From Microcaldota archaeon (lineage in GTDB: Archaea; Micrarchaeota; Micrarchaeia; Anstonellales; Bilamarchaeaceae), in contig JACRGD010000010.1 in assembly GCA_016212525.1 (NCBI GenBank), positions 124,001 through 188,000 of the forward strand: a stretch of DNA of 64,000 nt, given 5' to 3'. The position numbers and the translations under genes are program-made. The notes below the pieces were generated by a model, which worked only from the letters and a program-made list of their open reading frames with translations, did not search any database and was not told where the DNA came from. The first letter of the stretch is position 1. Each line of letters opens with the position of its first letter. Of this stretch, positions 54,411 to 63,714 are shown in pieces.

Positions 54411-54911
54411 CTATTCTATAATTAATTTCGTTATCAACTTTGAATCCCTTAATTTCGCCAGAACAGAACCGGGGAGCTTTTTTTCGATAACGATTGTAAG
54501 ACGGGGGTTGGGGTAAATGTCAGGGTCATCACTGACAACCTGACGGATGCTTATGCCCTCTTGAGCAATTATCGTAGTTATTTCACTAACAACACCGACA
54601 GCATGAGGTTCGGATTCGAGTTCGATAACTTCAAAGCCAAGATTCTTTGCAGCTCCACGAATAAATGCAGTTGGATAAAGTCCCTCAAATATATTGAGAA
54701 GCTCTGGAACATCTGAAATTAATTGTGCGGTTTCGATTACAACCCGACGATCGAGATTTAAAGCCCTGGCGATTTTAACCGGACTGATCTCCACTTCACC
54801 ACAGTAAATATTGGCTTTTTTATCGACTCTAAAACCGCGTTTAAGCATCAGCTCGACCACCTTTTTGCGCATTGGAAAACGCAAAAAGGCATCTTCAAGA
54901 ATAGGATACAT
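54411..54911 (-). CDS. Helix-turn-helix plus ACT-domain regulator of amino acid metabolism
   Basis: 166 residues from ATG 54911; TTG 54920 is too close to the promoter. An N-terminal winged/HTH-like segment (MRKKVVELMLKRGFRVDKKA; EISPVKIARALNLDRRVVIE) is followed by an ACT domain (GVVSEITTIIAQEGISIRQV, LTIVIEKKL). This matches the archaeal COG2150-type family of predicted amino-acid regulators. Its promoter is shared with trpE; dyads overlap its start and the trpE TATA. A Trp- or aromatic-sensing repressor of the trp operon is the simplest reading, still untested. Confidence 0.78.
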   Translation of the reverse strand: MYPILEDAFLRFPMRKKVVELMLKRGFRVDKKANIYCGEVEISPVKIARALNLDRRVVIETAQLISDVPELLNIFEGLYPTAFIRGAAKNLGFEVIELESEPHAVGVVSEITTIIAQEGISIRQVVSDDPDIYPNPRLTIVIEKKLPGSVLAKLRDSKLITKLIIE

Positions 54912-54955
54912 AAGGTACAATTATGTACAGAAAGGATATAAATAGATCATTGATC
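54907..54955. promoter_or_regulatory. Divergent trpE/ACT-regulator promoter with dyads
   Basis: TATAAATA (54937-54944) is the trpE TATA, about 30 bp before ATG 54974; the same region read on the minus strand (TTTATA) serves the regulator at ATG 54911. Dyad 1: arms TACATAA (54907-54913) and TTATGTA (54921-54927), overlapping the regulator start; inside it lies GTACA-ATTA-TGTAC (54915-54928). Dyad 2: GATCA-T-TGATC (54945-54955), between TATA and transcription start of trpE. Confidence 0.6.
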
Positions 54956-54973
54956 AGAAGCTACTTGATAGCC

Positions 54974-56302
54974 ATGATAATCAAAGACCTAAACATATCA
55001 CTAAATCCCTACAGATTATATAGCATAATAGAACGGGAATATGATCACTCGTTCCTGCTTGAATCGACCCAAGGCCCAGAGCATCTGGCAAGATATTCTT
55101 TCATAGGGTTCGAACCGGAAACGAAAATGGTTTGTGAGAGGGGAGTCCTAAGGACTGAAGATGAAGAATACGAATCTAAAGACCCGCTGGAAACAATGGT
55201 CGAAAAGATTCCAAAAAAGAACTTGGACTATAGGGGATTTAGCGGCGGAGCAGTGGGCTATGTTTCTTATGAATACATAAAACGACTCGAGCAAATTGCA
55301 GGGGGAAATGAAAAATCGAGCAAATTTCCCGAGTTTGAATTTGGGATTTTTAACGATGCACTAATTTATGATCATTTAAATCGCAAAACAACTTACGTTT
55401 CGCACACAGAGGATAGATCGGCACAGATTATTGCCCTTTCAAAAGAAGACACACTAATTGGAGGTTTGGAGTGTTCAAAAGCCAAAACCAATTTTGAAAA
55501 GGAACAGTTCGAAAAAGCAGTGGAAATAGCCAAACAAGAGATAGTAGAGGGCGAGATTTTCCAGGTTGTACTTTCACGAAAATATGAGTTTGGCTTCGAT
55601 GGAAATCTGCTGAGGTTTTACAACCAACTTCGACAGATCAACCCTTCGCCATATATGTATTATTTGAGCTTTGGTGAGAAACGAATTATTGGCTCGAGTC
55701 CGGAAAACCTGGTTCGGGTCGAGGGTAGAAAAGTCGAAAGTTATGCAACACTCGCCGGAACCATCGAACGGGGCAAAACGCCAGAACAAGACAAAGAACT
55801 AGAAAACAGACTACTAAATAGTGAGAAAGACAGAGCGGAGCATTTGATGTTAGTGGATCTGACACGAAACGACTTGGGAAAAGTTTGCAGGGCCGGAAGT
55901 GTAAAGGTCAATTCGCTCATGGACGTTCATAAATACAGCCATGTTCAACACCTAAGTTCAGCAATAGAGGGGGTTTTGGAAGATACAAAGGGATGTGCAG
56001 ATGTCTTCAATGCCATATTTCCGGCCGGAACAGTCAGTGGAGCTCCAAAAGTACGGGCCATGGAGATAATCGATCGACTTGAAAAAGACGCGCGCGGACC
56101 ATATGCTGGAGCAGTCGGATACTTCTCATTCAATGGAAATTGCGACTTTGCAATCGGAATCAGAACACTTTTTTCATACAGGAGCAAGGCATATGTTCAA
56201 GCGGGCGCGGGAATAGTCTATGATTCAATTCCCGAAAAAGAATTCATCGAAACTGAAAATAAGATGAAAGCGCTTGTTGATACACTCGGGGTGATAGCGT
56301 GA
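54974..56302 (+). CDS. trpE: Anthranilate synthase component I
   Basis: 442 residues from ATG 54974; the longer frame (ATG 54923) begins upstream of the TATA box and is rejected. The Trp-binding LLES motif ([10 protein letters not shown]), then [55 protein letters not shown] and [16 protein letters not shown] of the chorismate-binding fold are present. With TrpG it makes anthranilate from chorismate and glutamine. Feedback by Trp is likely from the LLES motif. Stop overlaps the trpG start. Confidence 0.96.
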
Positions 56303-62621: not shown

Positions 62622-62663
62622 TTATAAACATTTTGTTTCTAAAATAGTGTATAGAATAGTGTA
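62622..62663 (+). promoter_or_regulatory. Promoter of the aro operon with direct repeat
   Basis: TTATAAA (62622-62628) is the likely TATA box; transcription should start near 62650, leaving about 28 nt before the small ORF at 62678. A perfect 9-bp direct repeat AATAGTGTA (62643-62651 and 62655-62663), 12 bp apart, overlaps that start region, a good candidate operator. Confidence 0.5.
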
Positions 62664-62677
62664 AAATTGTGATAATA

Positions 62678-62794
62678 ATGAAGTCTGAAGGAGCAATAAA
62701 CAGATTCAACTCATTTTCGAGCTTCTTCAGCTTTGGCTCTAGCGATTTGCAAAGCTTTGCAGTTCGCTTTAGTTATTGGTTTAGCTTTAATTAG
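62678..62794 (+). CDS. Aromatic-rich 38-codon leader peptide ORF before DAHP synthase
   Basis: ATG 62678 (behind TTGTGATAATA) to TAG 62792. The 38-residue product contains nine Phe, one Tyr and one Trp; the last nine codons are R-F-S-Y-W-F-S-F-N. Ser and Phe dominate, hydrophobic aliphatic residues are nearly absent, and there is no sign of a folded domain. This is the composition expected for a leader peptide that senses aminoacyl-tRNA supply for the pathway encoded next (DAHP synthase makes the first intermediate of Phe, Tyr and Trp). The stop codon sits in the first arm of a strong hairpin. The opposite strand is also open here over about 30 codons but lacks a start. Confidence 0.6.
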   Translation: MKSEGAINRFNSFSSFFSFGSSDLQSFAVRFSYWFSFN

Positions 62795-62842
62795 TCGAAA
62801 AAGCTACTAAACCGTTTTTATTTCAAGTGGTTTTTTCGACTA
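62742..62842 (+). promoter_or_regulatory. Alternative hairpins of a candidate attenuator before DAHP synthase
   Basis: Hairpin 1: GCGA (62742) pairs with TCGC (62764-62767) around the palindrome TGCAAAGCTTTGCA (62748-62761). Hairpin A: GGTTT-AGCTTT (62778-62788) pairs with AAAGCT (62800-62805) and AAACC (62809-62813). Hairpin B: TAGTCGAAAAA (62792-62802) is perfectly complementary to TTTTTCGACTA (62832-62842), 11 bp. AAACC can pair with either GGTTT (A) or GGTTT at 62829-62833 (B), so A and B exclude each other. The 38-codon ORF ends on TAG at the first base of hairpin B. T runs (62814-62822, 62831-62836) could terminate transcription. Confidence 0.6.
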
Positions 62843-62901
62843 CATATGGACAAAGTTAGTGATAACTCTGGAAAATAAAAAAATGGAAGGTGTTTGAAGA
62901 T

Positions 62902-63714
62902 ATGAAAGACATAAAATTGGCAGGATTGAGCGGCGAACGAAAACGTACGGTAATTAAGATAGGAAATGCAAGAGTAGGAGACGGATTGACGATTGTCGGG
63001 GGCCCATGCGCAGTAGAAAGCGAGGAACAGACGATGCAGGTTGCAAGGGCAGTAAAGGCAATAGGAGTCGATTTACTTAGAGGAGGCGCATTCAAGCCTA
63101 GAACATCTCCATACGCATTCCAGGGATTGGGATTGAAGGGGCTCAAAATACTCGCAAAAGCAAGAGACGAAACAGGACTACCAATAGTTACGGAAGTGAT
63201 AGATACCCGAGACGTTTCATGGGTATGTGAATACGCAGACGTACTACAGATCGGAACTCGAAACATGCAAAATTTCTCACTACTAAAAGAAGTCGGAAAA
63301 GCAGACAAACCAGTCTTACTCAAGCGTGGAATGTATGCAACGATCGAGGAATGGCTATATTGTGCCGAGTATATACTTAATGAAGGAAATCCCAACGTAA
63401 TACTGTGCGAACGAGGAATTAGAACTCACGAAACCGCAACGCGAAATACACTCGATTTGAGTGCTGTTCCTGCAGTAAAGGAAAAAACACACCTACCAAT
63501 AGTCGTCGATCCGAGTCACGCAACAGGAAAACGAAGTCTCATTGAACCTATGAGTCTCGCTTCAGTAGCAGCAGGAGCTGATGGGCTTATGATCGATGTA
63601 CATTGCAATCCAGAGCAGGCACTTTGTGATAAAGAACAGGCATTAGTACCAACGGATTTCGAGCGAATAGTCAAAAAGGTTAGGTCATTAAGAAAGACCA
63701 TGGAGGCGCTCTAA
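62902..63714 (+). CDS. aroF: 3-deoxy-7-phosphoheptulonate synthase (DAHP synthase)
   Basis: 270 residues from ATG 62902, preceded by AAGGTG (62887-62892); GTG 62890 is in frame and inside that site. Type I-beta DAHPS: VGGPCAVESEEQTMQVARAV, DLLRGGAFKPRTSPYAFQGL, VLQIGTRNMQNFSLLKEVG, VILCERGIRTHETATRNTLD and VVDPSHATGKRSLIEPMSLA carry PEP, E4P and metal ligands. Short N-terminal extension, so feedback through an ACT or CM domain is absent, consistent with control at RNA level. The stop overlaps the aroB start (TAATG). A 4-codon ORF at 62883-62897 overlaps the site. Confidence 0.95.
   Translation: MKDIKLAGLSGERKRTVIKIGNARVGDGLTIVGGPCAVESEEQTMQVARAVKAIGVDLLRGGAFKPRTSPYAFQGLGLKGLKILAKARDETGLPIVTEVIDTRDVSWVCEYADVLQIGTRNMQNFSLLKEVGKADKPVLLKRGMYATIEEWLYCAEYILNEGNPNVILCERGIRTHETATRNTLDLSAVPAVKEKTHLPIVVDPSHATGKRSLIEPMSLASVAAGADGLMIDVHCNPEQALCDKEQALVPTDFERIVKKVRSLRKTMEAL

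Follow-up and report, generated by a model that had tools for sequence, protein, structure and literature searches.

The bacterial leader-peptide attenuators (the trpL, pheL, pheA and hisL class) form the reference class for the locus described here. In Rho-dependent attenuation, as at tnaC and similar systems, a ribosome near the stop codon decides the access of a termination factor to exposed RNA; the TnaC nascent peptide stalls in response to Trp. A bacterial intrinsic terminator needs a U-run after its hairpin, and archaeal termination depends on U-tracts, for which a hairpin is unnecessary. Of relevance to the latter, aCPSF1 binds RNA carrying two U4 tracts (PMC8716108), and structures of FttA have prompted the suggestion that a coupled ribosome and FttA are in competition (PMC11616081). 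Archaeal aromatic biosynthesis genes are controlled by TrpY and TK0271, which are DNA-binding proteins acting at promoters (PMC6737238). A paper from 2021 described a mechanism of transcription attenuation or antitermination as then unknown in archaea (PMC8448881), and no later claim of archaeal attenuation was found in full-text searches of an open-access library, a scope outside which subscription journals mostly lie.

The window, a stretch of 64,000 nucleotides from an organism whose nearest named relatives are Candidatus Micrarchaeota, contains an ORF of 38 codons (MKSEGAINRFNSFSSFFSFGSSDLQSFAVRFSYWFSFN; 62678..62794, with ATG at 62678 and TAG at 62792-62794; the leader, its RNA elements and the DAHP synthase are all on the + strand). 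The initial annotation had placed this ORF upstream of a DAHP synthase and counted 11 Phe, Tyr or Trp codons in it, a description confirmed base by base (9 Phe, 1 Tyr and 1 Trp). A TATA box (TTATAAA, 62622..62628) predicts a transcription start approximately 25 nt to its 3' side, at ~62650. The DAHP synthase (62902..63714, ATG at 62902; PF00793, E 2.2e-81) is the first gene of an eight-gene shikimate/Phe/Tyr operon, which extends beyond the window and was read in L087 as aroF-aroB-aroDE/K fusion-aroA-aroC-pheA-tyrA-aminotransferase. As identified by Pfam, aroB encodes a 3-dehydroquinate synthase of the bacterial AroB type, the fusion joins a type I dehydroquinase to a shikimate dehydrogenase and a P-loop shikimate kinase, and the later genes encode EPSP synthase, chorismate synthase, chorismate mutase-prephenate dehydratase, prephenate dehydrogenase and an aminotransferase.

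Within the window alone, the aromatic content of the leader ranks 10th of the 392 ATG-initiated ORFs of 18-60 amino acids; because nine other small ORFs equal or exceed it, this sequence on its own is unconvincing. The window leader is also atypical when set against those of its relatives: it is longer and carries an insertion, the pairing between its Shine-Dalgarno (SD)-like box and the segment after the stop codon is weak, and it has a private hairpin. Between 62720 and 62794 it seems to have been internally extended, a canonical FFSFGSS copy being followed by DLQSFAVRFSYWFSFN. No Rfam covariance model (T-box, riboswitch or other) gave a match between 57000 and 64000 at E values of up to 1.

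The comparative evidence is more extensive. Leaders were identified at DAHP-synthase loci in 33 genomes from ten families, using upstream regions from across the order and the phylum; 25 of these regions were studied in detail and eight at class level, all in draft genomes, for the most part metagenome-assembled. The leader is present in 15 of 17 genomes in family f1, in all seven in f5 (one cut by a contig end), in all four in f24, and in single genomes of f3, f7, f8, f11, f22, f25 and f27; it is absent from the DAHP-synthase loci that were read in f20 and f21. Two related upstream regions in f20 (L121 and L141) contain small ORFs ending SSQYGTFY and YWEYGAFY, which are possibly another type of leader or a piece of a neighbouring gene. 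One further locus (L021, genome G048) was left out of the count, as its contig looks bacterial and carries a bacterial terminator, and its genome is 6% contaminated. Of the additional leader-motif matches in 301 genomes that were read, most represent chance occurrences inside other frames or genes.

Each of the 25 leaders has between 5 and 18 aromatic codons, the extreme being the f3 leader, in which 18 of 32 codons are aromatic (L023), and the usual C-terminus is ...FFSF(S/G)Y(x)Y-stop. Nearly all contain both Phe and Tyr, and most also Trp; as the operon makes chorismate, Phe and Tyr, this content matches the pathway. Aligning the leader across relatives, as the initial annotation had advised, shows both the ORF and its aromatic codons to be conserved: in the 19 alignable leaders, Phe codons alternate only between TTT and TTC and never change to Leu, and the Ser codon is AGC in 19 of 19. 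This implies constraint on both the peptide and the RNA. The TATA-like element also recurs: 19 of 25 loci have one between -62 and -28 relative to the leader start, frequently at -54 to -57, where mononucleotide shuffles would give 4.8. Directly 5' of the leader ATG stands a conserved GTG(G/A)T box (S0; GTGAT at 62669..62673 in the window, GTGGT in most relatives), a putative, SD-like ribosome-binding element. On translation of the leader, the comparison gives codon-level constraint and this box, and a search of the draft assembly of the window organism for the anti-SD pattern GGMTCACCTCC at a 16S 3' end gave no match. In another locus (L009), ~330 bp containing many short inverted repeats of the GACAAT/ATTGTC types separate the leader hairpin from the DAHP synthase.

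Two structures involving the leader ORF and its stop codon can be drawn. In the first, P1, the beginning of the ORF folds onto its end, and a segment following the stop codon is paired with the SD-like box. In the window its 5' arm, S1, occupies 62680..62694 and its 3' arm, S2, comprises codons of the FFSF segment, including the conserved AGC, at 62721..62734, such that S1 pairs with the first copy of the repeated motif. In the second, P2, the post-stop segment S3 (62792..62808, beginning at the leader stop codon) instead pairs with S4 (62826..62842), forming 17 bp (62792-62808/62826-62842) with an energy of -19.8 kcal/mol when folded alone. All 25 loci have P2 in their minimum-energy fold, with a mean z of -2.6 relative to dinucleotide shuffles (22 of 25 loci fall below -1.5).

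As P1 and P2 share S3 and the spacers vary in length, an arm-swap permutation was chosen in preference to a covariance model: in 25 loci, the pairing of each sequence's own arms was compared with that of arms from other species over 20,000 permutations. Own arms pair more stably than swapped ones for S1:S2 (-16.2 against -12.7 kcal/mol, z -6.7), SD:S3 (-8.2 against -7.1 kcal/mol, z -3.2) and S3:S4 (-23.6 against -17.6 kcal/mol, z -9.1), values from which the permutations do not fully remove the relatedness among loci. With one sequence per subclade, the corresponding z scores are -5.7, -3.1 and -7.5. Of the control pairings, S2 with downstream sequence (z -0.4) and SD with S4 (z +1.8) show no such preference; S1:S4 is not clean (z -2.9), again advising caution about relatedness. 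Compensatory changes are also evident by inspection, as in CGATGGCTGAAGC/GCTTTAGCTATCG (L006), GCTATTGCCGAA/TTCGGCTATAGC (L080), AATAGCTAAAGAA/TTCTTTAGCTATT (L081) and CAAAACCAAAA with TTTTGGTTTTG (L019). Mutually exclusive structures are hence found around the ORF and its stop codon, and are kept by compensatory change. The exclusion is confined to one part of P1: S1:S2 and P2 can coexist, and the only direct competitor of P2 is the SD:S3 pairing, which is short (~6-8 bp) and weak in the window.

These results modify the pair of competing hairpins that the initial annotation had envisaged. Its hairpin B, a perfect stem beginning at the TAG, is real, conserved and subject to compensatory change, at a length of 17 bp rather than the 11 bp originally given. 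Its hairpin A (62778..62813, arms 62778-62788/62800-62813) can fold, at -8.3 kcal/mol, and shows no comparable support from compensatory change (z -1.7); it is essentially specific to the window, which argues against it as a general antiterminator, and the conserved competitor of B is P1. The suggestion that this archaeon employs attenuation logic consequently retains the leader and its folds, both conserved in relatives, and loses the hairpin pair first proposed for it. A stretch resembling TTAGTGATAAC recurs in many loci on the 3' side of P2, before the first gene (62854-62867 in the window); a pairing of S2 with this motif was rejected (swap test z 0.06).

The distribution of U-runs relative to P2 is unusual for a bacterial intrinsic terminator. 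Of 24 loci, 23 carry a T-run of four or more nucleotides in either the loop or the S4 arm of P2, and the T fraction there is ~0.5, compared with ~0.27 in the tail leading to the first gene, where T-runs reach at most four. In the window, the first such tract (TTTTT, then ATTT) lies in the loop at 62815..62819 and the second (TTTTTT, 62831-62836) within S4. As the U-runs of the archaeal set are positioned in the loop and 3' arm and not after the hairpin, P2 is not a bacterial intrinsic terminator; of the features expected of an attenuator, the set has an ORF rich in product codons and the conservation of this ORF with its cognate codons, and lacks the intrinsic terminator. In the window and in many relatives the loop and S4 together supply two U4 tracts, and in other relatives one, so that a candidate site for aCPSF1/FttA may lie there. 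The position of P2 relative to the ORF is also constrained: in all loci but one its 5' arm begins at a point from 17 nt upstream to 7 nt downstream of the end of the stop codon. The first aromatic codon lies a median of 38 nt upstream of P2 and the last a median of 3 nt, and in most loci P2 ends ~35-80 nt before the start of the first gene.

Taken with the conservation of the leader, this arrangement makes it very probable that the element is a leader-peptide attenuator sensing aromatic amino acids. The best explanation, and on present comparisons a probable one, would be attenuation of the micrarchaeal aromatic amino acid operon with the ribosome as sensor. What the sequences show is the ORF, its conservation, both folds and the location of the U-runs; that the leader is translated, that ribosomes stall and transcription terminates, and in which direction the switch works, are inferred. 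Transcription from the TATA promoter would generate an RNA containing the Phe/Tyr/Trp-rich ORF, in which S3 may pair either with the SD-like box (as part of P1) or with S4 (P2), and the charging of aromatic tRNAs would fix the position of the ribosome. A ribosome at the stop codon would mask S3, preventing P2 and leaving the U-tracts open to U-tract/aCPSF1 (FttA) termination, which is the OFF state; as the 5' arm of P2 starts near the stop, such a ribosome is expected to mask S3 in almost all species. Were the leader not translated, S3 would be held by SD:S3 in P1, and the absence of P2 would again mean OFF. A ribosome halted by starvation at the first aromatic codons would disrupt P1 and, given the median distance to P2, spare S3, leaving it free to form P2, bury the U-tract of S4 and turn the operon ON. 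The assignment of P2 to the ON state and of exposed U-tracts to OFF rests on this geometry and is held at slightly under even confidence. It meets a difficulty in some leaders, where the last Tyr or Trp codon is only 3-7 nt before P2 and a stall would partly cover S3. Furthermore, RNA polymerase passes the U-tracts before P2 forms, so hiding them can help only against a factor that acts behind the polymerase.

A sensor of the same type with the opposite sign is unlikely, although it accounts for several of these features. P2 often resembles an A-tract followed by a stem (ACCAC/GTGGT) and the U-run of S4, and might be terminator-like; a stall at the last aromatic codons, so close to P2, would then cover S3 and permit readthrough on starvation, and the bacterial relatives of the leader do have a true terminator. 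However, no U-run follows P2 in the archaeal set, the T-runs of the tail being four or fewer, and a starved ribosome should halt at the first aromatic codon, from where P2 still forms. As an OFF structure, P2 would make starvation shut the operon down, the reverse of the expected sign, and P1 would mean ON with an untranslated leader. P2 is therefore preferred as an antiterminator.

Control at the level of translation, in which translating the leader would alter initiation at the first gene or mRNA stability without any premature termination, appears improbable. Archaeal coupling of termination and reinitiation does exist (PMC6728339), and in the f8 locus, L024, the 3' arm of P2 adjoins a GGAGGTGA box belonging to the next ORF; the distance between P2 and the first gene in most loci nevertheless excludes the start region of that gene from the structure. 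It is more improbable still that the peptide itself is the sensor, with nascent FSF(S/G)Y stalling on free aromatic amino acid and not through codon-specific starvation. The Ser and Gly residues flanking the aromatic ones are conserved too, and FGYFYFY is common to micrarchaeal and spirochaete leaders, but the Ser and Gly codons fall in S2, where pairing with S1 accounts for their conservation, and the f3 and f8 leaders (L023, L024) are rich in aromatic codons without containing the motif.

As to the origin of the leader, the archaeal DAHP synthases of f1, f5 and f11 form a group that falls among bacterial sequences, with weak support for a single clade and three bacterial sequences inside the open group. 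Spirochaete leaders such as KSFSFGYFYFYF precede a G+C hairpin with a long T-run behind it, and a TTGACA box lies upstream of four of the five. One of them (L043) is identical at 23 of 24 nt to a micrarchaeal leader (L126) whose contig was assigned to archaea by binning alone, a score reached by 0 of 300 codon shuffles; the scores of L053 and L057 were likewise reached by 0 of 300 shuffles, and that of L054 by 1 of 300. The archaeal leader and the one heading bacterial DAHP-synthase operons are thus probably related; in the simplest account, the leader arrived together with a bacterial-type aro operon, and its terminator was later replaced.

Leaders of this type are not restricted to DAHP synthase. 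In one genome of family f13 (G090; L257, reverse strand, leader at 365), the leader MRNAKVCISGNSFFFSFSYY, with P1-like pairing, heads an apparently full DKFP-type operon of aspartokinase, ASA dehydrogenase, an AroA'-like enzyme, AroB' and later aro genes through tyrA, the DKFP-type genes being named by sequence resemblance and a match to PF01959. This AroB' family occurs in 6 of 301 genomes, and only G090 has the leader, several of the other contigs being short. In a second genome (G012) an aromatic leader heads a pheA gene, the only pheA leader found. The presence of the leader before both implies that the module follows the pathway and not one gene. No His leader was seen at 21 hisG loci, nor any Trp leader at 22 trpE loci, within the order. 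Elsewhere (L258, G022:C52, and also L239), the leader MARNERKGWSPFNAFSFGYFYFGRF with a TATA box is positioned 5' of two similar proteins of unassigned function; in G022, where no DAHP synthase was found, it may be an orphan or have been reused.

That the leader is merely a passenger remnant of a bacterial attenuator moved with the aro operon, as its similarity to spirochaete leaders and the bacterial setting of the DAHP synthase might suggest, is very improbable, because the covariation of P1 and P2, the archaeal TATA box, the conservation of aromatic codons across families and the reuse before a non-homologous operon require continuing selection. The fullest version of the proposal is that this is the first ribosome-mediated attenuator in archaea, with P2 an antiterminator hiding U-tracts from aCPSF1/FttA and a leader of bacterial derivation that arrived with its operon, was adapted to the promoters and termination of archaea and was then reused before the unrelated DKFP operon; as a whole this is tentative, and less likely than not. 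If true, it would provide a conserved and testable mechanism of attenuation in archaea, would mean that archaeal transcription-translation coupling serves regulation, and would offer a natural substrate for studying how a ribosome or an RNA fold keeps aCPSF1/FttA off mRNA. It would also represent a ribosome-dependent regulatory RNA that crossed domains and was rebuilt for another RNA polymerase and termination machinery.

Comparison with TrpY and TK0271 shows a shared concern with archaeal aromatic biosynthesis genes, with control by RNA proposed for the leader and exerted at promoters by these proteins. The trp operon of the window has a TGTACA box (~54924, in the trpE upstream region 54411-54975) and no Trp leader, and looks to be under a TrpY-like repressor. 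In two relatives (L196, L205), a TGTACA...TGTACA palindrome lies near a TATA element, beside a divergently oriented gene whose product weakly matches the ACT domain.

The bacterial DAHP-synthase leaders share the family of the downstream gene, both in Spirochaetota (L043, L053, L054, L057 and L058), where the peptide is similar too, and in delta-proteobacteria (L055, L065, L070 and L078) and Acidobacteriota (L072); they differ in having a G+C hairpin followed by a T-run, and so an intrinsic terminator. Like the trpL, pheL, pheA and hisL class, the archaeal leader heads a biosynthetic operon with a short ORF that is enriched in codons for the pathway products, and shows alternative pairing of segments around the stop codon. 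Unlike that class, it has a TATA promoter, U-runs within P2 itself, in its loop and 3' arm, with none after the hairpin, and pairing of the ORF start with the ORF end and of the SD-like box with the post-stop segment. With Rho-dependent attenuation it would share the same ribosome-gated logic, the factor proposed in the archaeal leader being aCPSF1/FttA acting on the U-tracts.
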